From NCBI GenBank assembly GCA_014055495.1, contig WIAG01000038.1:1-34577 (forward strand): 34,577 bases of DNA, written 5' to 3'. Below are positions 8,316 through 33,239 of the stretch, piece by piece. Within the stretch, counting starts at the first letter, position 1. Every line of letters begins with the position of its first letter. The DNA is from Nitrospira sp. CR1.2 (GTDB taxonomy: Bacteria > Nitrospirota > Nitrospiria > Nitrospirales > Nitrospiraceae). The translations under genes and the position numbers were made by a program. Below the pieces are notes generated by a model. It had not been told where the DNA came from, did no database searches, and saw only the letters and a program-made list of their open reading frames with translations.

Positions 8316-8379
8316 GTTATAGCCCCGGCAAGCCCGGCCGTCTACAGACGCCCGCTCATGGATGCCAACGGATGCTACA
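8316..8379 (-). promoter_or_regulatory. Tandem-repeat regulon promoter, copy 1 (three repeats)
   Basis: Minus strand: TGT, then 10-bp units AGCATCCGTT, GGCATCCATG and AGCGGGCGTC, two bases, -35 TAGACG (8339-8344), 17 bases, -10 TATAAC (8316-8321). The predicted transcription start is about 18 bases before the ATG at 8291. The operator spans 41 bp, exactly 10 more than the other six copies. Confidence 0.75.
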
Positions 8380-8486
8380 CGATCGACTAGGGTGAAGTCG
8401 ACAAGAAGAAGCACGCACGCTCGGGATCGATCCGGCCGGAGACGTCTCAATTGAGATGTAGCAGCAGCACGGGGGCGAAGGAGCGG

Positions 8487-8783
8487 CTATTTCTTCCCCT
8501 TGCCCTTCTTGCTCACAGCCTGTTCCGCATGCGCCAATGATTCCTCGGCATGTTTGACGGCTTCCTTGGCATGCTCCAGCGCTTCCTTGGCATGGGGATC
8601 GTTGCTGGCCTTGACCGACTCCTCCAGATGCTTGATGGCTTCCTTCTCGTGCTCCACGCCTTCCTTGGCATGCTTGATGGTTTCCTTGACGTGGCCGCCG
8701 TCGGCCAGGGCATGTCCCATCGGCGCGGCAAGGACCAGCGCGGACAGCGACAACACCACCATTGCAGTGCGTACGTAAGTCAT
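8487..8783 (-). CDS. smbP: SmbP-like small periplasmic metal-binding protein
   Basis: 98 residues from the ATG at 8783, which has GGAGGA 6 bases upstream. A signal peptide ends at HALA|DGG. The mature part is a chain of short helical repeats of the form H-A-K-E-x-x-x-H (HVKETIKHAKEGVEHEKEAIKH, continuing with ALEHAKEAVKHAEESLAHAE), followed by a Lys-rich tail. This regular His/Glu spacing is the hallmark of SmbP, first described in Nitrosomonas europaea, a four-helix periplasmic protein that binds copper and other divalent metals. It should buffer periplasmic copper. No copy of the tandem-repeat promoter lies upstream, so its control differs from the metal regulon further on. The family link is strong on composition; homology should be read with care because low-complexity helices can converge. 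Confidence 0.85.
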   Translation of the reverse strand: MTYVRTAMVVLSLSALVLAAPMGHALADGGHVKETIKHAKEGVEHEKEAIKHLEESVKASNDPHAKEALEHAKEAVKHAEESLAHAEQAVSKKGKGKK

Positions 8784-8997
8784 AATCATTCCTCCCCGGC
8801 AAATAAGTGGTTCGACGAAAATCGTGGGCGCATTGTACAACATTCGACACTGTTTGTTGAGTGACTGTCGGACTGGGTCTGGTCGTAGGAAGACAGGAAC
8901 GATGGTGGGAGAGGGAAGCGTATGGGCGTACGCTTCCCCCCTCGGGGCTCACTGCGTGGTCAGCGCAGTCCAACCGTCGAGCCCCGTCCACCGATCG

Positions 8998-9513
8998 TCA
9001 GCTGTGGAACGACGGCAACCGGCAAATCCCGCATCGGCCTGGCTGCGTCGTCGCCGGGGAGCCGGCCGCATTCCAGCTGGCATAGATCCAAGACTCTCGC
9101 TGCCCGCATCCCCGGCTGTTCAGGCTCATCCCGGCACACTTCTCCATGGCAAACAGGGAGGGACGCGGGCCCTGCCCGGCAGCGCGCGACGGATAGGGCT
9201 GCGACTCCACCACGAAGACCGTGCCGACCGGGAACGACTCCGCGTCGGTCGTCAGCAGCGCCCTGGGGGACACGTAGAATCGTAGCTGCTGTGCTCCCTC
9301 CCGTGACTCGACCACCGAGGTCAGGCTGGGCCAATCTCGATACCCGAATGGAACCAACAGACCGGCGGCAGGCGGAGCCGGCGACCAGCCTTCGCTGATA
9401 TCCAGCGCCAAGGCCAACAATCGCACCACGGCCACGTTCAAGCCGGCCTCGTGATGAGATGCTCCGGACATCTGCGTTCGAGGGGGTGCTGCCACTGCGT
9501 GACTGGCCCGCAT
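8998..9513 (-). CDS. Cytochrome P460-like protein with degenerate heme motif
   Basis: 171 residues from the ATG at 9513 (AAGGAAGG upstream). The P460 pattern is visible: GYRDWPSLTSVVESREG, RFYVSPRAL, FPVGTVFVVESQPY, then ESWIYASWNAAG and a final cysteine pair. In true P460 the end is CxxCH, which binds heme; here it reads CGICR (Cys161, Cys164, Arg165), and the protein stops six residues later (LPSFHS). The N-terminal region (LNVAVVRLLALALDIS) resembles a signal peptide but has charged and polar interruptions. It is therefore likely a decaying paralogue or a non-heme relative. It follows the TPR gene by 31 bases, on the same strand as the intact P460 (10898-11443). It could also be a real gene with a different cofactor. 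Confidence 0.6.
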   Translation of the reverse strand: MRASHAVAAPPRTQMSGASHHEAGLNVAVVRLLALALDISEGWSPAPPAAGLLVPFGYRDWPSLTSVVESREGAQQLRFYVSPRALLTTDAESFPVGTVFVVESQPYPSRAAGQGPRPSLFAMEKCAGMSLNSRGCGQRESWIYASWNAAGSPATTQPGRCGICRLPSFHS

Positions 9514-9544
9514 GAAACACCTTCCTTTCTGGTCCTGACGATGT

Positions 9545-11592: not shown

Positions 11593-11838
11593 TTACCGCT
11601 TGAGCGATCGACGCCTAGTCAGCGGCACGATTTTCAACTGCGGCACGGACTCCGTCGGACGCGGATCCGTCCGACTCCCCTCGACCAGCGCCATCACGGA
11701 GGAACGAAAGATGCGCAGACTGCCGCCGCCGATTTTGGTGGCATCCAGCCGCCCTTCGTCGACCCAGCGATAGATCGTCCACTTGCTCACTTGCAGCATG
11801 TGGGCGGCTTCCTTGACCCGCAAGAGCGGCTGATCCAT
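11593..11838 (-). CDS. Small excisionase-type helix-turn-helix DNA-binding protein
   Basis: 81 residues from the ATG at 11838, with GGAAGG about 7 bases upstream. The first 60 residues are a winged HTH of the MerR/excisionase (HTH_17) type: LLRVKEAAHMLQVSKWTIYRWVDEGRLDATKIGG, then a short wing (SLRIFRSSVMALVE). The C-terminal 25 residues are basic and disordered (VPLTRRRSLKR). Members are either phage or plasmid excisionases or small regulators. No integrase, att site or phage gene is nearby, so a regulator is more likely. It is the only plain transcription factor in the window, but nothing in the sequence links it to the tandem-repeat promoters. Confidence 0.8.
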   Translation of the reverse strand: MDQPLLRVKEAAHMLQVSKWTIYRWVDEGRLDATKIGGGSLRIFRSSVMALVEGSRTDPRPTESVPQLKIVPLTRRRSLKR

Positions 11839-12209
11839 CACACACCTTCCAGTACCATTCGAGACTATGGCGGTGGACAGGAGCGGCTTCGACACCGCTC
11901 ATCCCCGAGTGCGCGGGGGGGGACGAGCCTCCCGAACAGCCGGGTCCACCATGCGAATACCGGCACATGCCTCACGACAGTGACTTGGGGACCGGCAGCG
12001 GAGGTCACAGGGATGGCGCCTGCGCTGCCGGCAGGTCCAGGGTAGAGGGCAATTCAACCCCGGACTCAGATGATTCGAGTGAATAGCTCAGGCCGAACGC
12101 CCGATGGCGGCGGTTCACAGTGTGAAGCAGGCACCGGTCCCGGTTCTTCGCGGAACGGTCCAACCATCACATGCGCTGTGAAGAAAAGGCGACGTGCGCC
12201 CCGCCCGAA
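11839..12209. other. Intergenic stretch without recognised gene
   Basis: About 370 bases with no convincing coding frame on either strand. It contains a perfect odd palindrome TTCACA-G-TGTGAA (12114-12126), operator-like, and some weak hairpins (CCTGC/GCAGG near 12020-12036). No copy of the tandem-repeat promoter is present. Confidence 0.5.
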
Positions 12210-12542
12210 CTATCCCCTCGCGGAGACCGGCGGTGCACGGGTGTGAAGAGACGAGTGATCCTGAACGGCAATGAGCAGAGGAGCGGAAGGGAGAGAAGAC
12301 AGCTGCGTAACCCAGGAGATCCCGTTATCCGCATGCGCCACCGGGCCGACATCTGATGAAGCTTGGCAGGCCCACGAACAGAGCGTGGAATGGGAGTCCG
12401 TCCCGGAATGCTGGTGGTGATCGCCTGACGGTGCCGCATGGGCAAAGGAACAGCCCGGCGCGACGAGCGCCAAGGTCAGATAGACCAAGACCACGCCAAG
12501 GGTGACGAGGACAGCTGATGTTTTGGTGGATAATCGATTCAT
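12210..12542 (-). CDS. Small His/Cys-rich secreted protein, regulon member with RAPP tail
   Basis: 110 residues. A signal or TM segment (VLVTLGVVLVYLTLALVAPGC, ending near FAHA) is followed by a His-rich stretch (GDHHQHSGTDSHS) and CSWACQ. A second hydrophobic part (LSSLPSAPLLIAV) precedes HSSLHTRAPPVSARG. The WAC motif and the R-A-P-P tail are shared with other small proteins in this window (22904-23302, 27781-28191 and, for the tail, 16469-16807). The pattern resembles DUF2946-like small proteins found beside metal-uptake genes, but I cannot confirm the family. Many His and Cys suggest metal binding. It is transcribed from promoter copy 2, whose predicted start lies about 18 bases before the ATG, and seems to stand alone. 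Confidence 0.65.
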   Translation of the reverse strand: MNRLSTKTSAVLVTLGVVLVYLTLALVAPGCSFAHAAPSGDHHQHSGTDSHSTLCSWACQASSDVGPVAHADNGISWVTQLSSLPSAPLLIAVQDHSSLHTRAPPVSARG

Positions 12543-12567: not shown

Positions 12568-12621
12568 CATCTACGCGCTTTCACAAAACTTGTCTACCGA
12601 CGGATACTCACGGATGCTACA
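12568..12621 (-). promoter_or_regulatory. Tandem-repeat regulon promoter, copy 2
   Basis: Minus strand: TGT, AGCATCCGTG, AGTATCCGTC, GG, -35 TAGACA (12591-12596), 17 bases, -10 TAGATG (12568-12573). Operator plus -35 is 31 bp. Predicted start about 18 bases before the ATG at 12542. Confidence 0.75.
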
Positions 12622-12643: not shown

Positions 12644-13954
12644 TCATACAGATGGCCCTCTCGCCCCCGCGACGACGGGCGAGCCGGTGCGCCGTGCCTG
12701 TGCCGTGATCCTGGATCGACGTTTCTTCCACCAGAGATAGGTGCCGGTTACCGAGAGCTGGACGATGATCAATCCCAGCAGGCACACAAACATTCGATAG
12801 GGAAGCCCGAACACATTGGCCATGTGCAGGGCATACAGCCAATTGCTGAGGGTGTTGCCGGTATATTGGCCCGCGGGCAGCAACGCCGATTTCAATGCCC
12901 CGCTGTCCGCGTCGAAAAACACCTGGGTTGTATAGCGGCGGGGTCTATCGTCGAGTTCACGGTCGGTCTCAACCTGATACTGATAGAGGCCGAATTCACG
13001 ATACAGTCGTAGCGCCACCGGCCGGCGCAGCGTCAGTCCCGCCTGCGCAACGTGCACCGCCATCAACCGCTCCCCGACCGTTTGCGCGTCCAACCAACTC
13101 AACTCCGGCCGCTCCATCGGAACCGGCCGTGATTGAAACTCTGTCCAATACGGGCGATAGTCGAAGAACGCCCGCGTGGTCCAGGTATACACCGTATCCC
13201 AGAGATTCATATAGACGCTCGACCAGGCGAAGAGCAGCAGCGCCGCCCACAGCCACAAACCGCTCGCCCGGTGCAGGTCGAAATTCAGCCGATAGGAGCT
13301 GGTGGGCCACTTGATCATCCATGCCGGCTTCCAGCGCTCCCACCAACTCGCCTGAGGCACTCGCTCTGGCCCATTTGCCTGGCCGGTACTGGAACGGCCG
13401 GCAGGAAGGGGAAGGGTCAGATAGAAACCGACGAAACAATCCAGGGTCCAGACAAACGCACAGATCCCCAGAATCCACACGCCCGGCATGTCCAACGCCA
13501 AGGAGTAGTGCAGCGCATAGACAAATGACATGAGGCCGGTCCACCCGTTCCGAAGTGAGCCCCATTGAATCCGGTCCAGCACCGTTCCCCTCGCCGGGTC
13601 CAGCACGACATAGTCGTACCCCAGGTGGAATGGCATCCCGGTGGCCGGATCAAGACGAGGCTCTACCCAGGCAGACGTCGCGCCGTCGAAGCCTTGCAAC
13701 GACACCTGAGTGACTCGCAGTCGTGGCTCGGCCCTCTCCAGCTTCTCTGCCAACAGGCCGGCGCCCATCCACGTGGCGGGGTTGCGGTCCGGATACCAGT
13801 GCGGATGGGCGAGGCGCTCCAGCTCGGGATAAAACGCCAGCAGACTTCCGGTTAGCCCGACCACGATCAAGAACCCCGCCATCGTCAGGCCGGCCCAGCG
13901 ATGCAGGCGGACCCAGAACGGTCTCCCACTCCGCCATGTACGTTGTGTCGACAT
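12644..13954 (-). CDS. PepSY-associated TM protein (siderophore/heme reductase-like)
   Basis: 436 residues from the ATG at 13954, with AGGAGGTG 6 bases upstream. It is a PepSY_TM protein: TM1 near residues 15-40 (RLHRWAGLTMAGFLIVVGLTGS), a large periplasmic PepSY part (LRVTQVSLQGFDGA), two or three central TM helices, and a last TM segment (MFVCLLGLIIVQLSVTGTYLWW) before a basic end (KKRRSR). Conserved histidines lie in or next to the helices: LHRW, YALHYSLALD, FDLHRASGLW and YALHMANVFG. In related proteins beside siderophore receptors such histidines bind heme and the protein reduces ferric iron at the inner membrane. It follows the TonB receptor gene by 68 bases and belongs to the unit started by promoter copy 3. 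Confidence 0.87.
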   Translation of the reverse strand: MSTQRTWRSGRPFWVRLHRWAGLTMAGFLIVVGLTGSLLAFYPELERLAHPHWYPDRNPATWMGAGLLAEKLERAEPRLRVTQVSLQGFDGATSAWVEPRLDPATGMPFHLGYDYVVLDPARGTVLDRIQWGSLRNGWTGLMSFVYALHYSLALDMPGVWILGICAFVWTLDCFVGFYLTLPLPAGRSSTGQANGPERVPQASWWERWKPAWMIKWPTSSYRLNFDLHRASGLWLWAALLLFAWSSVYMNLWDTVYTWTTRAFFDYRPYWTEFQSRPVPMERPELSWLDAQTVGERLMAVHVAQAGLTLRRPVALRLYREFGLYQYQVETDRELDDRPRRYTTQVFFDADSGALKSALLPAGQYTGNTLSNWLYALHMANVFGLPYRMFVCLLGLIIVQLSVTGTYLWWKKRRSRITAQARRTGSPVVAGARGPSV

Positions 13955-14022: not shown

Positions 14023-16374
14023 TCACATCTCGATGCGAAGCGATCCCAGGAATGTCAACGGCAGGCCCGGTTGAATGACGAGCCGGGAGTTGCCGCGGTC
14101 GTAATAGTCCGTATTGAGCAAGTTGTACACATTCAGCTGGGCCGTCATTTTTGAGCCGGAATACGTGAAGGTGTATCCGGCGCTCGCATCCCATCGGACA
14201 TATCCCGGCAACTCCACCGTATTATCCAGATCCGCCATCCGGTTGGACCGTGCGAAAGCCCCGGTTCCCAGACGGACACCCTGCAAGATCCCATCCGTGA
14301 ATTCGTAGACCGCCCAGAGGCTTCCGGAATGAGCAGGAACTGAAATGAGCCGGTACCCTTCGATGCCGCTCAGGTCCTTCGTAACTTTCGCGTCGGTGTA
14401 GGCGTAACTGGCGATGACGTTGAGTTGGTCGGTGAGACGGCCGGACACATCGAATTCCACGCCACGACTGTTGGCCTCCCCGATTGTCCGGCTGAACGGC
14501 GTGCCCGGAATCACCGTCGCCACGTTCTCCTTGGTCAGGTCGAAGAACGCCAACGTGGAGTTGACGGTGCCGCCCCAAAATTCGGTTTTGATGCCGGCTT
14601 CCCACTGTCTGGCGGTTTGCGGATCGAGCGAGCCGCTGCCCGGTAACGGCGTGCCGCTATTGTTGCTTCCCAAGGATTTGACATAGTTCCCATAGAGAGA
14701 CAGCCACTGCCAGGGTCGGTACACAATGCCCAGGCGCGGGCTGAAGTATCCGGTGCGCTCGTTGGTTTCACCGGCATGCGCCAAAGCCAGTGAGGTGTCG
14801 GAGAAACTGGTTCCGACCTCGGCCCAGTCATAGCGACCGCCGCCGAGAATATGCACCTTGTCCCACAGGGTGATCTGATCCTGGAAATACAGGCCGTACC
14901 ACTGCTCGGGAAACGTGCCGAATTGATTGTAGGTGGCACGGGTAATCGAGGAGAGGTCGATCCCGTACGTCGGGTTGAAGATATTGAGGGACGGTACGAC
15001 AGGGGTTTGTCCGGCAAAGGCACTATAGACGCCTTCAAATCGATAATAGTCCACTCCGACGAGCAGATCGTGCTTGAGGGGTCCCGTCCTGACATGCCCG
15101 ACCAGATCTAGATTGGCGGCATAGGTTCTGCGGTTCAGATCGGCATGCCACAACCCCCGGGTCAGCTCGCCCGTGCTCTGGTCGAAATCTACGGCAAAGA
15201 GCGTCCGTTGATCGTAGGCGACATCGTTGAACTGAAACCGGTTGATGATCTTCCAATCGGGGGTGAATCGGTAGGTCCAATCGAGTCCCACCAATACACG
15301 TCGTTGCGTATTCTTGGCGGCCGGATCGCCGGTGAACCGGCTCAACGGAATGGGGGCGGGACGATTGCCGATGGCAGGAATGCCGACATCGCTGACATCC
15401 GTGAACGTATTGCGTTGGTATTCAATGTCGAGGTTGCTTTCAAATCGACTATTGGGTCGCCACGTCAGGGAGGGAGCGAAAAAGATGCTGTGCTGCGTCA
15501 CCAAATCCTGAAACGTATTGTTGTTTTTGTACGCCAGATTGACCCGATAGAGCAGCGTACGATCCGCAAGGAGCGGCCCTGTGGCATCAATCGTCGTCCG
15601 GTAAAAATTGTACGAACCGAATTGCTGCTGGAGCGAATAGTACGGGACATCCAGCGGCCGTTTCGTCGCCAGATTGACCAGACCGCCGGGCTCGGTACGG
15701 CCGTAGAGAACGGAGGCGGGACCTTTCAAGACCTCGATCACGTCCAGATTCGCGGTTTCCAATGCGGTGGTGGCTTGATGGCGAAGCCCGTTGCGATAGG
15801 TGCTGGCGTTGGCTTCGAAGCCTCGTAGAATGAAATTATCGTAAAAGGTATATCCGCCCGGCTGGACTCCGCTGACATTCTTCAAGGCATCGCCCACGGA
15901 TATGACTTGCTGATCGTCCATCACGGCGCGCGGCACGACCTGAATGGATACCGGCGTCTCCATGATCGGCTGATCGCTCTTCGTGGCGGTCGCGGCCCGC
16001 TCGACGGCGTAGGACTCTCGCTGCGCCGTGACAAATACCGGCTTGGCCTCGACCACCGGAGCGGCCTCCTCTCTCTCTGCGGAGCGAGCCGGTCGGCGCA
16101 CATCAGGAACCGCAAGCGGCAGCGGCGGCACAATCGCCAAGGGCCGCTCCTCCGATGGCGGTGCCGGCGCCTCTCCCGCCTCTCCGGCCTGCTGAATGGA
16201 CGGCGCCGGTTGCCCGGACGAGTCCTCCGCCTGTCGGGAAGCCTGTGGCGGGAGCTGCGGCCCCGCGCAAGCGGCCATGATGAGACTCGCCAGGAGGGCG
16301 AAGCCCGCGATCGAACTCAATGGGGGAACGAATGAAGACGATGACGGACGAAACTGAATCGTGACGGAAACCAT
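14023..16374 (-). CDS. TonB-dependent siderophore-type receptor with lipoprotein signal
   Basis: 783 residues from the ATG at 16374 (GAGGAG about 10 bases upstream). The signal ends in ASLIMAAC, so Cys36 may be lipidated, which is unusual for a TonB receptor. A Pro/Gln/Glu-rich linker of about 80 residues leads to the TonB-box region (VVEAKPVFVTAQRE). The plug domain has TPVSIQVVPRAVMDDQQ and LKNVSGVQPGG, the siderophore-receptor signature, and VLKGPASVLYGRTEPGG. A long beta-barrel follows and ends LGSLRIEM. The ligand is not identifiable. It has a paralogue at 25224-27566. It is the second gene of the unit from promoter copy 3, after the small protein 16469-16807 and before a PepSY gene, a classic arrangement for siderophore uptake with reduction. 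Confidence 0.9.
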   Translation of the reverse strand: MVSVTIQFRPSSSSFVPPLSSIAGFALLASLIMAACAGPQLPPQASRQAEDSSGQPAPSIQQAGEAGEAPAPPSEERPLAIVPPLPLAVPDVRRPARSAEREEAAPVVEAKPVFVTAQRESYAVERAATATKSDQPIMETPVSIQVVPRAVMDDQQVISVGDALKNVSGVQPGGYTFYDNFILRGFEANASTYRNGLRHQATTALETANLDVIEVLKGPASVLYGRTEPGGLVNLATKRPLDVPYYSLQQQFGSYNFYRTTIDATGPLLADRTLLYRVNLAYKNNNTFQDLVTQHSIFFAPSLTWRPNSRFESNLDIEYQRNTFTDVSDVGIPAIGNRPAPIPLSRFTGDPAAKNTQRRVLVGLDWTYRFTPDWKIINRFQFNDVAYDQRTLFAVDFDQSTGELTRGLWHADLNRRTYAANLDLVGHVRTGPLKHDLLVGVDYYRFEGVYSAFAGQTPVVPSLNIFNPTYGIDLSSITRATYNQFGTFPEQWYGLYFQDQITLWDKVHILGGGRYDWAEVGTSFSDTSLALAHAGETNERTGYFSPRLGIVYRPWQWLSLYGNYVKSLGSNNSGTPLPGSGSLDPQTARQWEAGIKTEFWGGTVNSTLAFFDLTKENVATVIPGTPFSRTIGEANSRGVEFDVSGRLTDQLNVIASYAYTDAKVTKDLSGIEGYRLISVPAHSGSLWAVYEFTDGILQGVRLGTGAFARSNRMADLDNTVELPGYVRWDASAGYTFTYSGSKMTAQLNVYNLLNTDYYDRGNSRLVIQPGLPLTFLGSLRIEM

Positions 16375-16468: not shown

Positions 16469-16807
16469 TTACGCGACGATCAGCGTAGGAGGAGCGCGGA
16501 GACTGTGGATGGTTGCGAGGAAGTCTGCGGAGGGAGGTTCACGCGCCTGATCATCAGGCAACCTCGCCAGGAACGGCACGCAAGGCTCTAGCTCATCATG
16601 AAGGATTGCGGCGCAGGGGGAGGCTTGCGGAGGATCTATGAGCGAGACCGGATATGAGCAGATCTCGTCGCAATGCTCCCCTTCGGCGGCATAGTGCTCG
16701 GCGAGATCGACCGGACTCCAGAGCGGCGGCAACCCCAGCCACCACCAGACCGGCAGGAAGAGAAGCAGGACGACGGAGACTTTCCAGGATCTATTAAGGC
16801 GAGACAT
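16469..16807 (-). CDS. Small Cys/His membrane or secreted protein with RAPP tail
   Basis: 112 residues. One N-terminal hydrophobic segment (VSVVLLLFLPVWWWLGLPPLW) acts as signal or anchor. The rest carries EHYAAEGEHCDEICSYP and later Cys residues (ASPCAAIL, LEPCVPF), suggesting metal binding, and ends HSLRAPPTLIVA. The R-A-P-P tail is shared with the small proteins at 12210, 22904 and 27781, although this one lacks their WAC motif and is the most diverged. AGGAG lies 9 bases before the ATG at 16807. It is the first gene after promoter copy 3 and is followed by a TonB receptor and a PepSY gene. I do not recognise a named family. Confidence 0.6.
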   Translation of the reverse strand: MSRLNRSWKVSVVLLLFLPVWWWLGLPPLWSPVDLAEHYAAEGEHCDEICSYPVSLIDPPQASPCAAILHDELEPCVPFLARLPDDQAREPPSADFLATIHSLRAPPTLIVA

Positions 16808-16827: not shown

Positions 16828-16881
16828 CTTATAGCAGACGCTCCGCGGGCTGCCTACGGATGGGTGCTCACAGATGCTACA
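16828..16881 (-). promoter_or_regulatory. Tandem-repeat regulon promoter, copy 3
   Basis: Minus strand: TGT, AGCATCTGTG, AGCACCCATC, CG, -35 TAGGCA (16851-16856), 17 bases, -10 TATAAG (16828-16833). Operator plus -35 is 31 bp. Predicted start just upstream of the AGGAG of the gene starting at 16807. Confidence 0.75.
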
Positions 16882-18098: not shown

Positions 18099-18292
18099 TA
18101 ACCCGCATTCTCCATGAACACTTCTGTTGCAATCGCCGATTCACTACTACGACAGGCCTTCGGCCGGCGGGCTCGCCCCTCGGATCCTCACCGTACTGCA
18201 TGAGTACGCATCGGGTCCTCCCGGCTCCGCGCGCCGGTCTCGCCACGTGACTCGGCGATTTCACGACGAACCGCCATGAAGAATGCGGGTTA
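18099..18292. repeat. MITE-like palindromic element between two permease genes (copy A)
   Basis: 194 bp with imperfect terminal inverted repeats of about 45 bp: left end TAACCCGCATTCTCCATG, right end (reverse complement) TAACCCGCATTCTTCATG, each continuing to an ATCGCCGA-TCA block. No coding frame. The stop codon of the permease 18290-19456 lies inside its right end. A shorter relative is at 24822-24942. No clear target duplication was seen. Confidence 0.75.
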
Positions 18293-23332: not shown

Positions 23333-23387
23333 ACCATACGCAACCAGCCGTTCCCTTGTCCAGCAACAGGTGCTCACGGATGCTACA
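23333..23387 (-). promoter_or_regulatory. Tandem-repeat regulon promoter, copy 4
   Basis: Minus strand: TGT, AGCATCCGTG, AGCACCTGTT, GC, -35 TGGACA (23357-23362), 18 bases, -10 TATGGT (23333-23338). Operator plus -35 is 31 bp. Predicted start about 23 bases before the ATG at 23302, which supports that start choice. Confidence 0.75.
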
Positions 23388-25223: not shown

Positions 25224-27566
25224 CTAAAACTCCATCTTCAGGGATCCCAGGAAGAAACGTGGCGTTCCGATGTCGATCCGACCCCGGCCGAAGCCTGCGC
25301 TGCTCGGGAAGTACTCCTGGCCCAGCAGATTGTCCACATTCACTTGCGCAGTGAGCCGCGTGGCCCCGACATGCATCGTATAACTGGCCATCAGATTGAC
25401 CAGCACATACCCCGGCATCTGGTAGTCGTTCTCCCGATTCCCTTGCCGCTCTCCCCTGGCCACCAGCCCGGCCCCTACTTTCCATCCCTGGAGACGCGGC
25501 TCCTGGAACCGGTACGTCGTCCATAGACTGCCCGCATGTTTGGGGACATTCGGAAAGCGATTGCCGATCGTACCGTCGTTCATCTGGGTGATTTCCGAAT
25601 CGGTATACGCGTAGGTCGCAATCACATCCAACCCCGGGAGCACTTCTCCGGCCACGTCCAGTTCGACGCCATTGTTGCGCGCTTCGCCCGTTTGCACGGA
25701 GAACCCCAAGGCGGCGAGCACCGGATCGGGATGGCCCGTGGCCACATTCTGCTTGGTCAGTTCAAACCAGGACAGGGTCGCCGTCCACCGGCCATCGAAG
25801 AGCTCGGTCTTGATACCGGCCTCCCACTGCTGGGACGTTTCCGCTCTCAGCGGCGCCCCTGTCACACCCAGCGATCCGATATTCGGCACACCGAAGCCTT
25901 CGACATAGTTGCCGTACAAGGCGAGTTCCTTGATCGGTTGCCAGAGCAGGCCTACGCGTGGCGTGACGGCAGACTGCCGGCTACTCGATACGGTCCGCGT
26001 CCCGCCGAACGTATTGTCGGTCGTAATCTCCGCGCTGTCGTACCGCAGGCCCGCCAACAGATGCAGGTGAAACGGCAATTCCACCTGATCCTGCAGATAG
26101 AGCCCGAACCATTTCTCGCGGAGATCGAACGCAAAATCGTCCGCCGGATCCGCAATAGAATTCCCACTATGGACCGGGTTGAAGATATTGATGGAGGGAA
26201 TCGCGAAGTTGTCGACCATGGTGCCGGTATTCTTGAACTGGTAATAGTCCGTTCCCACCAAGAGCCGATGGTTGAGCCCGAAGGTGTCGAAGCGCCCGGT
26301 CAAGTCGAGGCTGGTCGTATAGGTCTTGTGTTTGTTGCCTTGGAATCCGGCGAAAAAACGATCCAAGGTTTCGTTGTCCGCTTGCAGGGCCAGCGGCAAC
26401 ACCACCTGATCATCTTCCTTCGTCGATTGCAGATAGGCCCGGTGCTGAATCTTCCACTGGCTATTGAACTCATGCGACCAATTGAATCCGCCGAGCAGGG
26501 CCGTATAGTTCGCCTTGGCGAACGACTCGCCCAGGTTACGCTCGATCGGCAGAGAAGCCGGCCTGGTGCCGAGGGCCACCGTGCCATAGTCAGGACGCAC
26601 GTTGCCTTTGCTGTATTCCCCGTCGAACGTGATCTGTGTCCGCTCGCTCAATTTCCATTGCACCACCGGCGCAACGAACAACTTCTTGTCGTCGACGAAC
26701 TCCCGGAACGACCCTTTACTTTCATAGGACATATTGAACCGATAGAGCAGCGACCCCGACTCGTTGAGTTTGCTCGTCGCATCCAAAGCCGTGCGGTAGA
26801 AATCGTACGACCCGACCTGCTGTTGAATCGAGTAGTAGGATTGCTCAAGCGGCTTCTTCGTGACGAGATTGATCATCCCGCCCGGTTGAATCCGGCCATA
26901 GAGAATCGACGCCGGGCCCTTCAGGACCTCGATCCGCTCCAGGTTCGCCATTTCCCTCCTGCCGGTTTGCGTCAAGGCCGACTGAAACCGAGTCCCTTCC
27001 CGATAATAGTCGAACGTTTCGAATCCCCGAATCGTAAAGGACTCGAAGAGACTGAGCGATTGATTGGCAAACACACCGCTGACGTTGTTCAGCGCATGGT
27101 CCAGACGCGTCGTCTGTTGATCCTTCAACACCTGCTGCGGCACCACCTGGATGGAAAACGGCGTCTCCATGATCGGCGTATCGGTTTTGGTGGCCGTGAC
27201 GGCGTTCGTCATGTGATAAGACTCGGCCTGCGCCACCACATACACGGGTTTCACGTCGACCACCGGCGTGTCGGCCTTCTCCTCGCTGCTGACTCGGTCG
27301 ACCGCAGCAACCGGCGGGACCGGCGGCGGCACGCCGACCGCGACGGGCGGCTCTGATGGTGCCGGTTCGGTGGTTTGCTGAACTTCGGCTGGTTCGGAGG
27401 GCTGGACCTCCGCCGCCTGGCGAGGCTGTGTCGGTACCGGTTTATGCGGCCCGATGCAGCCCGCGAACACAATGAGACAGATGACTGCACCTGTGGTCAG
27501 GCTGACGCCCGACCACACACTTCGAACGTGATCCTCGGCACTTTGATCGCATACGACTGACTTCAT
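25224..27566 (-). CDS. TonB-dependent siderophore-type receptor with lipoprotein signal (paralogue)
   Basis: 780 residues from the ATG at 27566, with GGAGGGGAG about 8 bases upstream. The signal ends CLIVFAGC, a good lipobox with Cys37, followed by a Pro/Glu/Gln-rich linker of about 75 residues and a TonB-box region (VDVKPVYVVAQAE). The plug domain has TPFSIQVVPQQVLKDQQ, LNNVSGVFANQ and VLKGPASILYGRIQPGGMI. The barrel ends FFLGSLKMEF with the usual terminal Phe. It resembles 14023-16374 in all these features. It is the second gene after promoter copy 5, behind a small Cys/His protein. A perfect 30-bp palindrome (27582-27611) sits directly upstream of its ribosome site. No PepSY gene follows it. 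Confidence 0.9.
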   Translation of the reverse strand: MKSVVCDQSAEDHVRSVWSGVSLTTGAVICLIVFAGCIGPHKPVPTQPRQAAEVQPSEPAEVQQTTEPAPSEPPVAVGVPPPVPPVAAVDRVSSEEKADTPVVDVKPVYVVAQAESYHMTNAVTATKTDTPIMETPFSIQVVPQQVLKDQQTTRLDHALNNVSGVFANQSLSLFESFTIRGFETFDYYREGTRFQSALTQTGRREMANLERIEVLKGPASILYGRIQPGGMINLVTKKPLEQSYYSIQQQVGSYDFYRTALDATSKLNESGSLLYRFNMSYESKGSFREFVDDKKLFVAPVVQWKLSERTQITFDGEYSKGNVRPDYGTVALGTRPASLPIERNLGESFAKANYTALLGGFNWSHEFNSQWKIQHRAYLQSTKEDDQVVLPLALQADNETLDRFFAGFQGNKHKTYTTSLDLTGRFDTFGLNHRLLVGTDYYQFKNTGTMVDNFAIPSINIFNPVHSGNSIADPADDFAFDLREKWFGLYLQDQVELPFHLHLLAGLRYDSAEITTDNTFGGTRTVSSSRQSAVTPRVGLLWQPIKELALYGNYVEGFGVPNIGSLGVTGAPLRAETSQQWEAGIKTELFDGRWTATLSWFELTKQNVATGHPDPVLAALGFSVQTGEARNNGVELDVAGEVLPGLDVIATYAYTDSEITQMNDGTIGNRFPNVPKHAGSLWTTYRFQEPRLQGWKVGAGLVARGERQGNRENDYQMPGYVLVNLMASYTMHVGATRLTAQVNVDNLLGQEYFPSSAGFGRGRIDIGTPRFFLGSLKMEF

Positions 27567-27780: not shown

Positions 27781-28191
27781 TTACGAGACGAACGAAACGG
27801 CGCTGAAGGGAGGGCCGCGGCCATTGGCCGCGACCGGCGCGAGACTGCGGTAGCTGAGCCACACGAGCACGAGGGGTACGAAGAAGGAGACCAACACCGG
27901 CAGGTGCGGGATCTCCGGAAGGACAAACGCCGGATCATCTTCATTGACCGAACAGGCCCAGATGATCCACGGACTGACCGGAGCCAGGCCATGGTGGCAT
28001 CGATCGCGATCCCACCCGCTATGAAGATAAAACGCTCTGGTCTTCGCCGGTTCCCAATCGCTGAAACAGGTCGAACAGACAATGCCTGCCGCGACGCGGA
28101 TGGCAATGAGCAGACAGGCAAGCAGCGCAACCAGCCGAGGGGTCCGGCCGGATCGATCGGTCGCATGCATGGCGCGAAGAAAATCGTTCAC
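27781..28191 (-). CDS. Small Cys/His membrane protein, WAC/RGPP family (paralogue 2)
   Basis: 136 residues from a GTG at 28191 (AGGAA 6 bases upstream; predicted transcript start 21 bases upstream); an ATG at 28170 is the alternative. TM1 (LVALLACLLIAIRVAAGIVC) leads to CSTCF, then FYLHSGWDRDRCHHG and IIWACSV, then FVLPEIPHLP, TM2 (VLVSFFVPLVLVWLSYRSL) and a tail ANGRGPPFSAVSFVS. Homologous along its whole length to 22904-23302. The outside loop of Cys and His residues should bind a metal or heme or form disulfides. It heads the unit from promoter copy 5, followed by a TonB receptor 214 bases away with two hairpins in between. No known function. Confidence 0.72.
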   Translation of the reverse strand: MNDFLRAMHATDRSGRTPRLVALLACLLIAIRVAAGIVCSTCFSDWEPAKTRAFYLHSGWDRDRCHHGLAPVSPWIIWACSVNEDDPAFVLPEIPHLPVLVSFFVPLVLVWLSYRSLAPVAANGRGPPFSAVSFVS

Positions 28192-28219: not shown

Positions 28220-28274
28220 AGGCTACGACACTGCGTAGGACATGGTCTACAGATGCCTGCTCACGGATGCTACA
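28220..28274 (-). promoter_or_regulatory. Tandem-repeat regulon promoter, copy 5
   Basis: Minus strand: TGT, AGCATCCGTG, AGCAGGCATC, TG, -35 TAGACC (28244-28249), 18 bases, -10 TAGCCT (28220-28225). Operator plus -35 is 31 bp. Predicted start about 21 bases before the GTG at 28191. Confidence 0.72.
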
Positions 28275-28338: not shown

Positions 28339-28713
28339 TCACAACTTCATCACTTCCAGACTCACCTGCTGAAACCCCAGCCCGCGGATGCGATCCACGA
28401 CGACGACGAACCGCTCCAGCCGCGTCACCTTGTCGGCACGAACCAAGACCGGAGATTGGCGGGGATGGGGCGCCAAGACGGTGCCCAGTTGCTCCTCGTC
28501 GATCGCACGGTCGTCCACGAAGACCGTCCCCTCCGCCGTGACTGTCACGACGATCGGTCGGTCATGCCGGTCGGCCGAGGTCGAGGCCTTCGCCAGATTG
28601 ACCGGTATCTGTCCTGTGGTGATGAAGGTCGCCGTGGTCAAGACGATCACCAGCAGCACCAGCATGATATCTACCAGCGGAATCACATTGATCTGATCGA
28701 CTTCATGTTCCAT
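28339..28713 (-). CDS. exbD: ExbD/TolR-type proton channel subunit
   Basis: 124 residues from the ATG at 28713. It starts MEHEVDQINVIPLVDIMLVLL: the N-terminal TM helix carries the conserved Asp (LVDIML) that ExbD and TolR use for proton movement. The periplasmic domain follows with IPVNLAKAS, VFVDDRAIDEEQL, VLVRADKVTRLERF and VVVVDRIRGLGF, typical of ExbD. With ExbB it powers TonB. The gene overlaps the end of exbB by 11 bases, so translation is coupled. Short and compact, close to the ExbD2 subtype. No tonB gene lies in the window, so the TonB partner must be elsewhere. It is the last gene of the unit begun by promoter copy 6. Confidence 0.93.
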   Translation of the reverse strand: MEHEVDQINVIPLVDIMLVLLVIVLTTATFITTGQIPVNLAKASTSADRHDRPIVVTVTAEGTVFVDDRAIDEEQLGTVLAPHPRQSPVLVRADKVTRLERFVVVVDRIRGLGFQQVSLEVMKL

Positions 28714-29128
28714 GGCGCGCCTTGTACTGCGCGAGCAACTCGCTGACACGCCGCCGGAGGATGTTATTCACGACGACGCAGGGAATGGCAACCACGAGCC
28801 CCGCCGCCGTCGCCTTCAACGCAAGACTCAGGCCGATCATGATCGTCGTCACCGCCATGGCGCCGGAGCTACCCATCGTGTGAAACGTCAGCATGATGCC
28901 CAGCACGGTGCCGAGCAGGCCGATGTAGGGGGCGTTGGCCGCCACGGTTCCGATCACCACCAGCCGTTTGGTCAACGCGATTTCACATGCGTCGAGCGAC
29001 GGGTACGCATGCACATCGATCCGCCGGTAACACCACCACCGCTCGATCGCCACCGCGACCGCCCAGAGACTCAGCCCGATCAACAGGCCGATCACACCGT
29101 ACTCCACCAGTTCCTTCATACCTTCCAT
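28703..29128 (-). CDS. exbB: ExbB-type (MotA/TolQ/ExbB) proton channel subunit
   Basis: About 141 residues from the ATG at 29128, with GGGGGG upstream; an in-frame GTG at 29134 is possible. Three TM helices: GVIGLLIGLSLWAVAVAIE near the start, then the family core VAANAPYIGLLGTVLGIMLTF and ATAAGLVVAIPCVVVNNIL. The GLLGTVLG motif is diagnostic. The length is much shorter than the E. coli protein and fits the short ExbB2 subtype. It forms the energised stator with ExbD for TonB-dependent receptors. It follows the TonB receptor 29445-31676 after a gap of 316 bases that may hold a small gene. Confidence 0.93.
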   Translation of the reverse strand: MEGMKELVEYGVIGLLIGLSLWAVAVAIERWWCYRRIDVHAYPSLDACEIALTKRLVVIGTVAANAPYIGLLGTVLGIMLTFHTMGSSGAMAVTTIMIGLSLALKATAAGLVVAIPCVVVNNILRRRVSELLAQYKARHGT

Positions 29129-29140
29129 GATCACCCCCCA

Positions 29141-29444: not shown

Positions 29445-31676
29445 CTACTCGAACACATACCGCACAGACAGGCCGCCGAAGACGTTGCGGCCGATGAAGG
29501 GCCCGAACGCCGGCGCGTTGGCCGGGTTCAGCGTGGCAAACGCATAGTTCTCGTCAAACACGTTTTCCAGTCGGGCAAAGGCTTCGATCCCCCAATGTTT
29601 GTTCACCATCGTCTTATAGCCTCCCTTCAGGTTGGTCACCGTGTAACTGGGATTTTTCTGCCCGTTGAGAGGCGACGAGGATTCAAGATTCGTATCGCTC
29701 AGGAAATAGGCGGTCTGGTATTGCCATTCCACGCCGGCAAAGGCGCCGGCCAGCACGCCCTGCAGTTGCTCGTACGTCCAGTCGATGACGAGGCGATGCG
29801 TCGGCACGCCGGGCAGGGTCTTGCCCGCCAGCTGAACGCCGTTGACGAGGTAATCGCGGAACCGGTAATCCGCATAGGTATAGGCGAGCTGGATCGTCAA
29901 CGGGCGAACCGGCTTATAGGCTAAGCCGACTTCCAATCCGTCATGGTCGCTCTTGCCCGCATTGCGAAAACAAGGCGCAAAAATATTGCACGGACCGGTG
30001 AAACCCGTGCTGAACCGCAAGAGCTCGTCCGTAAAATGCTGACGATACAGCGCCACGTCATAGTAGAACGTCTCGCCGAGGGCGCCTTTCACGCCGATTT
30101 CGTAATTGGTGGATTTTTGCGGTTGAATGCCCGGGTTCAAACCAGCGCCGCTCGCCGTCAGAGGATTGCGGAATTCCGAGCCGGTCGGCGTTTCGAACGA
30201 CTGTCCGACGGTGAGATATACATTGGCCCAAGGGACGGGACTGTACCGGATGCCTCCCAACCCGGTCGTTTGCGCAAAATTCCGTCGACCGGAGGCGTCG
30301 ATTCCGCCGCTTCGCAGGTGGTCTGAGACCTTGAACCGGACCTGGCTATACCGAAGGCCTCCCACCAGCTCGATCTGATCGGTCACCTTGAATTCGTTCT
30401 GCAAGTACACGCCGTCCTGGTTGATGCGCTCCTGCGTGAAAGACTGCAGCGCCCCAGGCGAGCCCAGGACGTTTGCGAAATTCTTGTTGACCGAATTCTG
30501 GTCCTGCCAGTCGTACCCGACGATCAAGCGGTTTTCATGGCCGAGAATCGGCACCGTATTGGTGTATTTCGCGAAGGCCGCGTTTTCAATGCGATTCAAC
30601 GTGATAAAGCTGCTGTTGAAACAACACAGCGGATGGTGCAAATCGCGCGTGGCAAAGAAGCCTGTGACGGTGATTTCCTGATGCTCACTGAGCTGGTTGC
30701 GATAGGTAAGGGCCGGGCGAAACCGCTCATCCTTGCGAAACGGTTTGAACGCCGCGTAGGGCGTATTCGCGGGAAATGTTGCCGGCGGAACGGCGTGCAG
30801 CGTCTGCTGCTGCAGCCGCGGGCTGTTCTCGAATTCCGAGCGAAAGAGGCTGCCAGGAATGTCGCCGTCCATCTGGCCGTAGGTGACGACCAGCGACAGA
30901 TCCGAATGATCGTTGAAGGTATATTTGAACTTCCCAAGAAATCGTTGATTCCTCGTTACGGATTGATCGCGGTAGCCGCCGTAATCCAGAAAAGAATAGT
31001 TGGCCATCCAGCTGAATTTGTCGTTCGCTCCCGCAGCCTTCAGCCGGTACTTCGAAAAATCATAGGAGCCGAACACAACACGGGGCTCTACATAACGATT
31101 GTCTTTGCTCCCTTCCTCTAACACGTAGTTGATGACGCCCGCCGAGGCATTGCCATACAGGGTCGAATTCGGTCCGCGCAGCACTTCCACACGGGCGACC
31201 GCGTCCAGATCGATCGGCTCCAACCTGGTCTGCCCATCGACTTCGGTAAGCGGGACACCGTCGATCAGGATGCGCACGCTCCGTACACCGAACGTGGAGC
31301 GGACACCGCTCCCGCGGATCGAAATCCGCACATCGTCGGGCCCGAACCGCCGTTCCGTCTGTACGCCCGGCACGATCCGCAACGTTTCATCCACGCCAAC
31401 GGCCGGCCGCCCTTGCAGAATTTGCTTTTGATCGATCACCGACACCGCGCCGGGCACTTGCGTCAGTTGCTTCGGCGCACGTGTGGCGGTCACCACGACC
31501 GGATCCATGATCACCAGCGGCGCATCGCGTTCAGCGCTGCTTCGGATTTCCTTCTCATATTCTTCCTGCAGCGTCGATCGTTCCGAACCGATGGCTTCCT
31601 CGGCGCGCGCGGCGCCAAAGGTCCAGACACTCATCGCGATCACACCACCGCACAGCAGGAGCACACGTGTCCGCAT
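29445..31676 (-). CDS. TonB-dependent outer-membrane receptor (FecA-like)
   Basis: 743 residues from the ATG at 31676 (GAGGTG about 4 bases upstream). A normal signal peptide (RVLLLCGGVIAMSVWTFGAARA|EE), not a lipoprotein one. TonB box VIMDPVVVTATRAP. The plug domain has QVPGAVSVIDQKQIL, VGVDETLRIVPGV, DVRISIRGSGVRSTFGVRSV and VEVLRGPNSTLYGNASAGVI. The barrel follows and ends GGLSVRYVFE. It belongs to the general FecA/CirA-like group, different from the two siderophore-type receptors nearby. Ligand unknown. First gene of the unit from promoter copy 6, followed by exbB and exbD, so the receptor and its energy source are controlled together. Confidence 0.92.
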   Translation of the reverse strand: MRTRVLLLCGGVIAMSVWTFGAARAEEAIGSERSTLQEEYEKEIRSSAERDAPLVIMDPVVVTATRAPKQLTQVPGAVSVIDQKQILQGRPAVGVDETLRIVPGVQTERRFGPDDVRISIRGSGVRSTFGVRSVRILIDGVPLTEVDGQTRLEPIDLDAVARVEVLRGPNSTLYGNASAGVINYVLEEGSKDNRYVEPRVVFGSYDFSKYRLKAAGANDKFSWMANYSFLDYGGYRDQSVTRNQRFLGKFKYTFNDHSDLSLVVTYGQMDGDIPGSLFRSEFENSPRLQQQTLHAVPPATFPANTPYAAFKPFRKDERFRPALTYRNQLSEHQEITVTGFFATRDLHHPLCCFNSSFITLNRIENAAFAKYTNTVPILGHENRLIVGYDWQDQNSVNKNFANVLGSPGALQSFTQERINQDGVYLQNEFKVTDQIELVGGLRYSQVRFKVSDHLRSGGIDASGRRNFAQTTGLGGIRYSPVPWANVYLTVGQSFETPTGSEFRNPLTASGAGLNPGIQPQKSTNYEIGVKGALGETFYYDVALYRQHFTDELLRFSTGFTGPCNIFAPCFRNAGKSDHDGLEVGLAYKPVRPLTIQLAYTYADYRFRDYLVNGVQLAGKTLPGVPTHRLVIDWTYEQLQGVLAGAFAGVEWQYQTAYFLSDTNLESSSPLNGQKNPSYTVTNLKGGYKTMVNKHWGIEAFARLENVFDENYAFATLNPANAPAFGPFIGRNVFGGLSVRYVFE

Positions 31677-31721: not shown

Positions 31722-31775
31722 ACTCTAACAAAGCTTCCTGCGGGGCGCTACCGACGTATGCCTACCGATGCAACA
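31722..31775 (-). promoter_or_regulatory. Tandem-repeat regulon promoter, copy 6
   Basis: Minus strand: TGT, TGCATCGGTA, GGCATACGTC, GG, -35 TAGCGC (31745-31750), 17 bases, -10 TAGAGT (31722-31727). This is the most diverged copy, yet spacing is unchanged at 31 bp. Predicted start about 38 bases before the ATG at 31676. Confidence 0.62.
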
Positions 31776-31840
31776 GATGTGACAGAATGACGTCACCGGG
31801 GAGAACGGACGGGAAAGGACGAGACCATTCAGAGGCGTCA

Positions 31841-31866
31841 CGGTGAGCCGGAAGGCCGGCTCACCG
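31841..31866 (-). terminator. Hairpin after the beta-propeller gene
   Basis: Perfect 11-bp stem CGGTGAGCCGG (31841-31851) with CCGGCTCACCG (31856-31866) and a 4-base loop, 26 bases after the stop at 31893. It would separate this gene from promoter copy 6. No T tract. Confidence 0.6.
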
Positions 31867-31892
31867 CAGGATTGGACCGGAAATGTGGATGG

Positions 31893-33143
31893 TCACGGCT
31901 TGGGGAGATCCACACGTCCCTCTTGCACCACGATCTTGTTCGTGGGAAACGCATGTTCGGTCCAAGCCAGTGCGATTCTTCCCGATGGGTGGATCGCCAC
32001 GGTCGGATGCTCAGCTTTCGTGCCGGCGCTCAGCGGAATGACCGATCCAAACGTCTTTCCCCGATCGAACGACACACGAAGGACCACCCGTTTACGCACG
32101 CCGGTCACTTCTTCCCATACGGCTGCGAGGATGCCGTCGGGATGAATCGCCAGGCGCAGGTTGTCGGGCAAGGAATTGGTCGAGGTATGCAAGGACACAG
32201 GCTCGGTAAACGTCCCGGCCCGGTCGTCCGAGGTGGCGAGGTAGAGACGAGCCTGCTCATCAGTCCCTTCCGTATACCAGCCGACGTAGAGCCGCCCCTG
32301 CCGATCGAAACCCAACGAAGGGCCGCGATGCGGGCAAGCCGAAAACACCCAATGGTCTTCCCGCACACGATGTGGGGGACCGAACGTCTTCCCACGATCG
32401 ACGGACTGCGCCACCACAATATCGCGCACGTTGCCCTCATAGGTTTTCCGCCAGGCAGCCCACAGACTGCCGTCCGGCGCCGCAGCCAGCATGGGACGGC
32501 AACAGGGGCAGGCCATGCCATCCACCGTGACATTGGGCCCAAACGTCTCCCCTCCGTCCCGTGAACAGGCGAACTGCACCGCAGCGCCGCTGCGATCCTT
32601 GCCGCGACCGTCCAGCCACATCACGTAGAGGTCGCGCTCGGGCCCGCGCAACAGATCCTCAAAAGTGTGGGAGATCGGCAACCCGTCGTCGTTGACCTGC
32701 ACCGGTGGGGTGAACGTACGGCCTCCGTCGCCGGAAGCCGCCACGCGAAGATCCGAGGCGAACATGGCGCCGGGGGTCCGATTCGGCGTAGACCAGCTCA
32801 GCGCCACCGTTCCGTCTCCTTGGGTGGTCAGCCCCGGGGCCTGGTGCAATGCCTCCGGTCCGAGCGATGCCGGATTGACCTGAACGGCATGGCTCAGTTG
32901 CCGCGTCTCTCCCGCGATCTGTCGTATCTTCACGGCGCCCTGTTGATCCGGCTTTTCCTGCCAGGCCACATGCAGCGTGCCGCCGGCGTCATATCGAAGC
33001 GAAGGAGGCGACAGGGTGAAGGGCCCGGCGGCAACGACCTGCGCCGGAGTCAACGTCACGCCGGGTGCGGCGAGCGTTTCTGCGTGAACGAGGTTCGGAC
33101 TCAGCCAGAGCAGGAACAAGAACCATATGCAGAACGCCATCAT
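31893..33143 (-). CDS. Secreted sialidase-like (BNR-repeat) beta-propeller protein with CPCC motif
   Basis: 416 residues; the ATG at 33143 has GGAGGAG 5 bases upstream. A signal peptide ends NLVHA|ET. The mature protein has several BNR/Asp-box repeats (SGDGGRTFTPP, SRDGGETFGP, SVDRGKTFGPP, SDDRAGTFTEP, SFDRGKTFGS), each starting a blade of a sialidase-type six-blade propeller. The sialidase catalytic Arg/Tyr/Glu set is not evident, so I do not call it an enzyme. The loop DGMACPCCRPML has three close Cys, and another Cys-His pair (SACPHRG) lies two blades on; both may bind metal. It is alone behind promoter copy 7, so it should belong to the same metal regulon and act in the periplasm or outside. 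Confidence 0.8.
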   Translation of the reverse strand: MMAFCIWFLFLLWLSPNLVHAETLAAPGVTLTPAQVVAAGPFTLSPPSLRYDAGGTLHVAWQEKPDQQGAVKIRQIAGETRQLSHAVQVNPASLGPEALHQAPGLTTQGDGTVALSWSTPNRTPGAMFASDLRVAASGDGGRTFTPPVQVNDDGLPISHTFEDLLRGPERDLYVMWLDGRGKDRSGAAVQFACSRDGGETFGPNVTVDGMACPCCRPMLAAAPDGSLWAAWRKTYEGNVRDIVVAQSVDRGKTFGPPHRVREDHWVFSACPHRGPSLGFDRQGRLYVGWYTEGTDEQARLYLATSDDRAGTFTEPVSLHTSTNSLPDNLRLAIHPDGILAAVWEEVTGVRKRVVLRVSFDRGKTFGSVIPLSAGTKAEHPTVAIHPSGRIALAWTEHAFPTNKIVVQEGRVDLPKP

Positions 33144-33184
33144 GGCATCTCCTCCGAAAAACGAACAAACCTGTCAGGGAGCCC

Positions 33185-33239
33185 ATGCTACGTGGGACCA
33201 TTCCGCACTGTCTACCGACGGGTGCTCATCGTTGCTACA
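33185..33239 (-). promoter_or_regulatory. Tandem-repeat regulon promoter, copy 7
   Basis: Minus strand: TGT, AGCAACGATG, AGCACCCGTC, GG, -35 TAGACA (33209-33214), 18 bases, -10 TAGCAT (33185-33190). Operator plus -35 is 31 bp. Predicted start about 34 bases before the ATG at 33143. Confidence 0.72.

Follow-up and report, generated by a model that had tools for sequence, protein, structure and literature searches.

The contig WIAG01000038.1 of Nitrospira sp. CR1.2 (assembly GCA_014055495.1), analysed here over its full length of 34,577 nucleotides and referred to as the window, carries seven promoters with a common operator, built of tandem 10-bp units and fixed to the -35 element, in front of metal-uptake genes. 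The same cluster encodes F10, a small winged helix-turn-helix (wHTH) protein of the excisionase/BldC type, and several of the promoters are followed by a short gene whose product resembles the leader peptide CruR of Bordetella pertussis. The architecture of the operator, its confinement to one cluster, and its linkage to both F10 and the leader genes are supported by sequence comparison. The best overall explanation, which we consider probable, is that F10 binds these operators and activates the promoters, and that the leaders sense copper.

Alignment of the window sites (Table 1) with the sites of seven relatives revealed an operator of three head-to-tail 10-bp units, TGTAGCATCC, GTGAGCATCC and GTCGGTAGAC, followed by an A. 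The triplets GCA, GCA and GTA occupy identical positions in the units, in steps of 10 bp, and the -35 element (TAGACA) is the end of the third unit. An earlier note on this DNA, made from its letters alone, had listed seven minus-strand sites, and all of them read as it gave them; the tandem 10-bp repeats that it described also stand, but its two units become three, since the TAGACA that it counted separately belongs to the third. Likewise, six sites span 31 bp as it reported, whereas the apparently irregular site at 8316 has one added 10-bp unit, i.e., four units, a form also present in relatives. Four-unit operators account for 16 of 193 distinct matches, and 14 of these are counterparts of the 8316 site; the remaining two are at L099:3048 and L109:8043. 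Over 177 distinct sites the information is concentrated in the GCA/GCA/GTA triplets, the -35 and the TA of the -10, and little is carried by the flanks and the spacer. The -35 is mostly TAGACA or TAGACG, not TTGACA, and it is separated from the TA by 17 bases in 128 sites and by 18 in 40, the two spacings already proposed. The register to the -35 is constant over all sites, including those with four units. The distance from the low end of the sites, as first given, to the first start codon was found to be 18–45 bases (some starts were chosen by eye) instead of 13–40. This architecture is practically certain. An alternative sigma factor was considered as the reader of these sites and rejected, because a -35 element is shorter than three to four tandem units spanning 31–41 bp.

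When a matrix was derived exclusively from other genomes (155 sites), it recovered exactly the seven window sites at 15 bits or more; these matches number eight, two of them standing 10 bp apart (8369/8379). The best score reached by chance was 11.1 bits in 40 Markov-shuffled windows, and 13.8 bits in control stretches around HTH_17 proteins. A 23-mer consensus with up to three mismatches matched five of the seven sites and gave no match in 100 shuffles. The seven sites are genuine and far exceed what chance would produce. Lower thresholds for the matrix, of about 20 bits, are used below and were set once the first results were known.

In the complete genome of this strain (4.06 Mb) the 23-mer, with the same tolerance, occurs five times, and all five are inside the window. 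With two mismatches at most, a degenerate 30-mer gave 50 matches in 11 of 12 genomes, and none when reversed; 48 of them lie in one cluster per genome, the exceptions being G015:C6:286131 and G018:C6:2340167, and a cluster may hold up to about nine sites (G015). Among 100 genomes, i.e., this one and 99 relatives, the 23-mer is present in 35. A 31-bp matrix built from eight genomes found 72 matches of at least 22 bits in 40 further stretches, which had been selected around F10 genes or pattern matches, and its column-reversed version found none. Confinement of the motif to one cluster points to a local regulon, not a global one, and these scans, of the kind that the earlier note had proposed, bear out a dedicated, cluster-confined regulon of metal-uptake genes with an operator fixed to the -35. 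That the repeats are a promoter cassette copied by duplication, with no dedicated regulator, is most improbable: the receptor and PepSY genes of the clusters do belong to multi-copy families, but the 31 bp are conserved across families and into another phylum (Methylomirabilota) while flanks and spacer are nearly uninformative, and the distribution of the motif follows that of F10.

F10 was the only DNA-binding family noticed in common to all eight clusters compared by their gene calls. A search of the same 100 genomes (E ≤ 1e-10) gave 50 positive for F10, after weaker matches in G006, G031, G061 and G068 had been set aside before the count. F10 is present in 34 of the 35 motif-positive genomes versus 16 of the 65 motif-negative ones (table 34/16/1/49; Fisher test, 4.5e-13); PepSY_TM proteins, in 47 of the 100 genomes, overlap the F10-bearing genomes only in part. 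The 16 F10-positive genomes lacking the motif served as a test of prediction: 13 have a matrix match of at least 22 bits in the F10 stretch, and two more have sites of 21.0 and 19.9 bits, so that a diverged site accompanies F10 in 15 of the 16. Seven genomes belonging to another family (G071, G081, G088, G089, G091, G093 and G096) have a site that begins 13–16 bp past the F10 stop codon, and in the Methylomirabilota locus L168 the site is 7–16 bp behind the F10 gene, a range shared with these seven distant genomes. In a separate collection the best 80 of 122 F10 relatives were kept, nearly all titled Nitrospira, Nitrospirales or Nitrospirota, with two titled Nitrosospira and three from Methylomirabilota; some of these loci (e.g., L128, L130, L132, L133 and L135) belong to genomes that had served in training the matrix, and some of the loci overlap. 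The motif was found at 62 of the 80 loci, including two of the three from Methylomirabilota, with 114 matches (109 distinct), all on the F10 strand, and one match for the reversed matrix. No match was found in 14 stretches around other, more distant HTH_17 proteins. From this comparison, F10 is very probably the protein that binds the operators.

Several results count against such a close linkage. When the table is made by genus (8/12/0/16), which allows for kinship, the association is weaker (p 0.005). In G086 F10 is present and no site was found, and in G037 a site exists and no F10 was found, the last unit and -35 of this site departing from the consensus. The motif is missing from the Methylomirabilota locus L175 and, in all, from 18 of the 80 F10 loci. 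Several of these 18 are second copies of F10, namely a 64-residue paralogue, and therefore the two paralogues may differ in role. The G037 site (L106, minus strand from 9493) is possibly a decaying remnant; its congener G055 carries F10 along with a consensus site. The 64-residue paralogue is found in this genome at L105:1474-1668 (contig C72), with counterparts such as L035:1128-1322, and in several relatives it is located in the same gene neighbourhood as the cluster. Within the genus no operator was found within 1.5 kb upstream or 0.6 kb downstream of it, and an alignment of its upstream regions (nine rows listed) showed no common box except the ribosome-binding site. Two other F10 copies, L112:2730-3020 (G043) and L113:12462-12752 (G013), leave the family after about residue 48, in the manner of a frame change, and an intact-looking operator stands beside each.

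The earlier note had suggested an OmpR/PhoB-type regulator. OmpR-type proteins bind direct repeats of about 10–11 bp, and a regulator of this or the AraC type was the first choice for 10-bp direct repeats; since F10 and the cluster genes travel together, F10 could then be a passenger of the island. No gene of either type was found among the Pfam-scanned open reading frames (ORFs) of the window (a genome-wide search was not made). This possibility is very unlikely, given that F10 alone was noticed in all eight clusters, that the site lies 7–16 bp behind F10 in the seven distant genomes and L168, and that the stretches around other HTH_17 proteins are devoid of the motif.

F10 passes the models TIGR01764 (49.5 bits, cut-off 28.8) and HTH_17/PF12728 (51.5 bits, cut-off 27); a point against a close relationship with BldC is that it fails the NCBIfam BldC subfamily NF033787 (30.2 bits, cut-off 77). 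It consists of a single winged HTH, with neither an effector nor a dimerisation domain. An alignment-based AF2 model, which replaced a poor single-sequence one (pLDDT 63), has a wHTH core with a pLDDT of about 90 and a tail below 50. The best Foldseek matches of this model were Xis of phage Pukovnik and BldC-DNA complexes, and phmmer aligned F10 with the BldC structure 6amk (E 5.5e-4). According to the accessible text of a 2018 paper (PMC5859096), BldC of Streptomyces forms head-to-tail multimers on direct repeats of differing number, its Arg30 recognises a guanine, and the interface includes Glu16, Val23 and Trp31; its homologues are said there to be numerous and their roles unknown. As in BldC, a single wHTH domain, of which about 52 residues align, makes up F10, which retains the recognition arginine and several interface residues: Arg30, Glu16, Val23 and Trp31 correspond, in a comparison made by hand, to R25, E11, V18 and W26 (P0001 numbering, one ahead of the 81-residue protein), and all of the 58 sequences compared have R25, V18 and W26, whereas E11 is conserved in 90% of them or more. 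Lys26 and His46 of BldC are replaced by Trp and Ser, in keeping with a repeat unlike that of BldC. If F10 is the binder, its operators resemble those of BldC in being direct repeats of variable number. In contrast with the AATTXXXX(C) of BldC (9 bp in the whiI structure), the F10-linked repeat is of GCA type and exactly 10 bp, its operator is fixed to the -35, and it precedes metal-uptake genes instead of genes of development. Variable unit number, an exact 10-bp period and directional repeats are what a BldC-like binder needs, which makes binding by F10 likely, and with the interface residues partly kept it is likely that F10 forms a head-to-tail multimer on DNA. The fold and the TIGR01764/HTH_17 models are also common to excisionases of phages and integrative elements (ICE) such as Pukovnik Xis (4j2n) and RdfS (8dgl); unlike their sites, the F10-linked site is part of a promoter and may recur as many as about nine times in a cluster. 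No integrase was found among the Pfam-scanned window ORFs. An excisionase acting on an attachment site was rejected because the sites are promoters with a fixed -10.

F10 protomers would line up head to tail, one per 10-bp unit, so that six of the window operators would hold three and the 8316 operator four; the last protomer would be on the -35 next to RNA polymerase, and this filament would most likely activate weak promoters. The common register to the -35, together with the weak-looking promoters, is read as activation next to the polymerase, and F10 is fairly likely to be an activator. The fixed spacing also suits the class II activator put forward in the earlier note; activation itself we infer. 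Repression, by filaments over the -35 that block RNA polymerase, the operons opening when F10 falls, is the principal alternative but unlikely. In its favour, the operator overlaps the -35, within the genus an operator precedes the long form of F10 by 660–830 bp, which would be compatible with autorepression, and BldC is described as a repressor of development in the available sections of PMC5859096, which speaks against activation. Nevertheless, a single register to the -35, also at the four-unit sites, is expected of an activator that touches the polymerase, and the core promoters look weak: the -35 is mostly not TTGACA, and of the 128 sites whose spacer is 17 bases long only 32% have a -10 with a final T. 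This T is present in 78% of the 40 sites with an 18-base spacer, so the term weak promoter does not apply equally to all, which also counts against activation.

A Cys/His-containing ORF that resembles CruR and ends in R[AGS]PP was detected behind 109 of the 177 sites, as compared with 6.1% of random same-strand positions and two of 177 on the opposite strand. The filters were devised after the first examples had been seen, and 109 is a lower bound, since some genes are missed, e.g., the one at 22904–23314 in the window. Among 113 distinct ORFs behind a motif, picked by the RxPP filter, 106 have a Cys pair (CxxxC in 81, CxxC in 25), located 41–42 residues before RxPP in 74 of the 106 and 82 residues in 22, as compared with 45 in CruR; the C-terminal motif is RAPP in 73, RGPP in 26 and RSPP in 14. 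On the F10 strand of the 80 loci (848 kb) there are 126 instances (119 distinct) of a strict signature (Cys pair or WxC, 38–46 residues, RxPP, 1–12 residues, stop), with none on the other strand and none in 170 kb of control stretches. According to the sections consulted of PMC9426467, CruR of B. pertussis is a DUF2946 upstream ORF (uORF) that senses copper through CXXC, arrests the ribosome at RAPP and heads an operon of a TonB-dependent transporter (TBDT) and PepSY_TM; the unit behind 16851–16881 has the same TBDT-PepSY_TM order. The leaders described here share with CruR and with CutF of Rhodobacter, as reported in the accessible parts of PMC9426467 and PMC9973294, their short length, an N-terminal hydrophobic stretch, a Cys pair, a RAPP-like end at a near-constant distance, a position at the head of TBDT/PepSY_TM operons and a gap to the next gene (94–371 nt for the four in the window). 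They differ from them in scoring below the DUF2946 cut-off, in having mostly CxxxC, in being driven by a dedicated operator and, in one case, in preceding the regulator gene itself. By this analogy, it is likely that the leader proteins are arrest uORFs.

Several findings limit this likeness and weigh against it. By the filter 68 of the 177 sites have no CruR-like ORF, and in the window none follows the sites at 8316, 31722 and 33185; those before the 114-residue gene truly lack one. The cut-off of PF11162 (DUF2946) was passed in none of 12 genomes, where only sub-threshold and largely chance-like matches were obtained; of 12 chosen small proteins two matched this model (best E 0.0012). With scores below the cut-off, these proteins are called CruR-like, not members of the family, and no Pfam family was found above cut-off for the small Cys/His proteins of the window. 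Small proteins ending in RAPP/RGPP upstream of TonB, PepSY and copper genes are widespread in many phyla, and Nitrospirota genomes were counted in the frequency survey, as stated in the available text of PMC12992588 and PMC10987492, which mentions no link of these arrest peptides to a BldC-type DNA-binding regulator. Leaders of this kind before such genes are thus already known; what is new here is the operator, together with F10. Additional small proteins of CruR-like sequence (CAWxC, RAPP/RGPP) that lack an upstream operator were seen in L086, L100, L144, L167, L169, L177 and L192, which indicates that such leaders are not confined to this regulon.

Another aspect of these leaders is the region between the uORF and F10. 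In 39 of the 80 loci the 900 nt upstream of F10 contain the end of an ORF with the strict signature; in the other 41 they do not. The distances are 356–418 nt in 16 loci, 187–250 nt in 15, 753–846 nt in six and 86–88 nt in two; in the window the gap is 371 nt. This leader was aligned in 15 of 17 listed sequences, the window included (L133 and L142 were left out), with a mean column identity of 78%. Helices are predicted in it, and the arm of one overlaps the stop codon of the uORF, an arrangement by which stalling of the ribosome would be able to affect the leader. Against this, the leader folds modestly better than its shuffles (z -1.67), and double changes were found in six of 78 consensus pairs; with covariation this thin, coupling between ribosome and leader is a lead only. 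A riboswitch was considered for this leader and dropped, the covariation being too weak for the claim; no Rfam family reached its gathering score in the window. A terminator-like stem is present at 12206–12187, and its T run is not kept in all relatives. For gating of F10 synthesis by its leader, we see the chances as evenly balanced.

Copper is somewhat favoured as the metal by the likeness to CruR, by the shared gene order and by the CopD-domain genes found beside F10 in the Methylomirabilota loci L153 and L168; in L168 an ExbB and a TonB receptor are located behind the operator. Two receptors of the window pass the cut-off of the TonB-siderophore subfamily, and this counts against copper, as iron or another metal would then be possible. 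In that case the regulon would answer to iron through siderophore uptake, and the small proteins would sense another metal or the redox state; Fur genes are present, and the available portion of PMC9426467 refers to a siderophore reductase that is a PepSY_TM protein. This alternative is rather unlikely, since the CruR operon of Bordetella, whose genes are arranged in the same order, is specific to copper according to the same portion of that paper, CopD genes accompany F10 in Methylomirabilota, and no excess of Fur boxes was seen in a simple 19-mer count, which gave four window matches of at least 12/19 versus 1–8 in ten shuffles. The earlier note had seen no Fur-like box.

From these results a sequence of events can be proposed. 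Many of the promoters would first transcribe a CruR-like leader that probably senses copper during its translation and would arrest the ribosome at its C-terminal R[AGS]PP, with TonB receptors, PepSY_TM proteins and the exporter encoded downstream. On copper shortage the uORF would permit F10 synthesis, and F10, as it rises, would switch on the other leader-headed operons, so that a feed-forward loop would be combined with a lock at each operon. We infer the binding, the activation, the role of copper and the arrest as the gate on F10. In its complete form the proposal is tentative: a copper-starvation cascade in which a nascent-chain sensor uORF gates a sensorless, filament-forming BldC-like activator of up to about nine promoters. 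It is equally tentative that many of the first genes in this cascade are of the same sensor-uORF kind, and that it is conserved from Nitrospirales into Methylomirabilota.

Table 1. Operators and genes of the window, with the basis of each assignment
Feature	Position	Strand	Remarks
Four-unit operator plus -35	8339..8379	-	promoter of the 114-aa/159-aa unit; two matrix matches offset by 10 bp
Three-unit operator plus -35	12591..12621	-	before the uORF-F10 unit; 50.3 bits with the matrix from other genomes
Three-unit operator plus -35	16851..16881	-	before the small protein-TonB receptor-PepSY unit
Three-unit operator plus -35	23357..23387	-	before the uORF-PepSY-HlyD-ABC unit
Three-unit operator plus -35	28244..28274	-	before the uORF-TonB receptor unit
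Three-unit operator plus -35, weakest of its kind	31745..31775	-	before the TonB receptor-ExbBD unit; 28.4 bits
Three-unit operator plus -35	33209..33239	-	before the BNR propeller gene
F10, 81-aa excisionase/BldC-type winged HTH, proposed regulator	11593..11838	-	Pfam, NCBIfam, fold, comparison
Conserved non-coding leader from uORF to F10, 371 nt, predicted structured	11839..12209	-	alignment, folding
CruR-like small protein (His-rich, CSWAC, TRAPP), proposed sensor uORF before F10	12210..12542	-	sequence signature
Small protein (CDEIC, LRAPP), heads the receptor/PepSY unit	16469..16807	-	CruR-like C-terminus; outside the strict signature
CruR-like small protein (CHTC, PCHHG, WAC, GRGPP), heads the PepSY/ABC unit	22904..23314	-	sequence signature
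CruR-like small protein (CSTC, RCHHG, WAC, GRGPP), heads the TonB receptor unit	27781..28191	-	sequence signature
TonB-dependent receptor, siderophore-receptor subfamily	14023..16374	-	Pfam/NCBIfam; start chosen by eye
PepSY_TM protein	12644..13954	-	Pfam
PepSY_TM protein	21497..22786	-	Pfam; start chosen by eye
HlyD/CusB-type adaptor of ABC exporter	20148..21416	-	Pfam
ABC transporter ATPase	19453..20136	-	Pfam
MacB/FtsX-type permease	18290..19456	-	Pfam
MacB/FtsX-type permease	16911..18080	-	Pfam
TonB-dependent receptor, siderophore-receptor subfamily	25224..27566	-	Pfam/NCBIfam; start chosen by eye
TonB-dependent receptor	29445..31676	-	best NCBIfam model PqqU-type, below cut-off
ExbD and ExbB	28339..29134	-	Pfam
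BNR-repeat beta-propeller protein	31893..33143	-	Pfam
114-aa protein, family F6	7947..8291	-	same kind of site precedes F6 in seven relatives' clusters
159-aa protein, family F5	7449..7928	-	no Pfam match

The genes read from the sequence in the earlier note, i.e., three TonB receptors, ExbBD, two PepSY_TM proteins, an ABC exporter and a BNR propeller, were confirmed by Pfam. Downstream of F10 there are two cytochrome P460 family proteins (8998–9561 and 10898–11569) with a TPR protein between them, and their families recur in eight and six of the eight clusters. A P-type metal ATPase with three YHS and two heavy-metal-binding stretches (3029–5980) adjoins the cluster, and an AAA_14/DUF4143 ATPase gene (23504–24664), present in four of the eight clusters, is located between two operator-headed units.

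Literature searches, which mostly did not cover subscription papers, found no title or abstract that describes the operator, F10 or a link between BldC and CruR, and nothing specific on the control of iron or copper in Nitrospira. If the proposal is true, F10 would be, to our knowledge, the first BldC-type protein with a part in metal uptake, and we know of no other transcription factor that takes its signal from a metal-sensing arrest peptide. The metal supply of nitrifying bacteria bears on nitrification. For one BldC homologue the operator, the fixed geometry of its promoters and the regulon, made up of metal-uptake genes of nitrifying bacteria, would hereby be defined, and the arrangement suggests how a regulator without a sensor of its own may get its signal.

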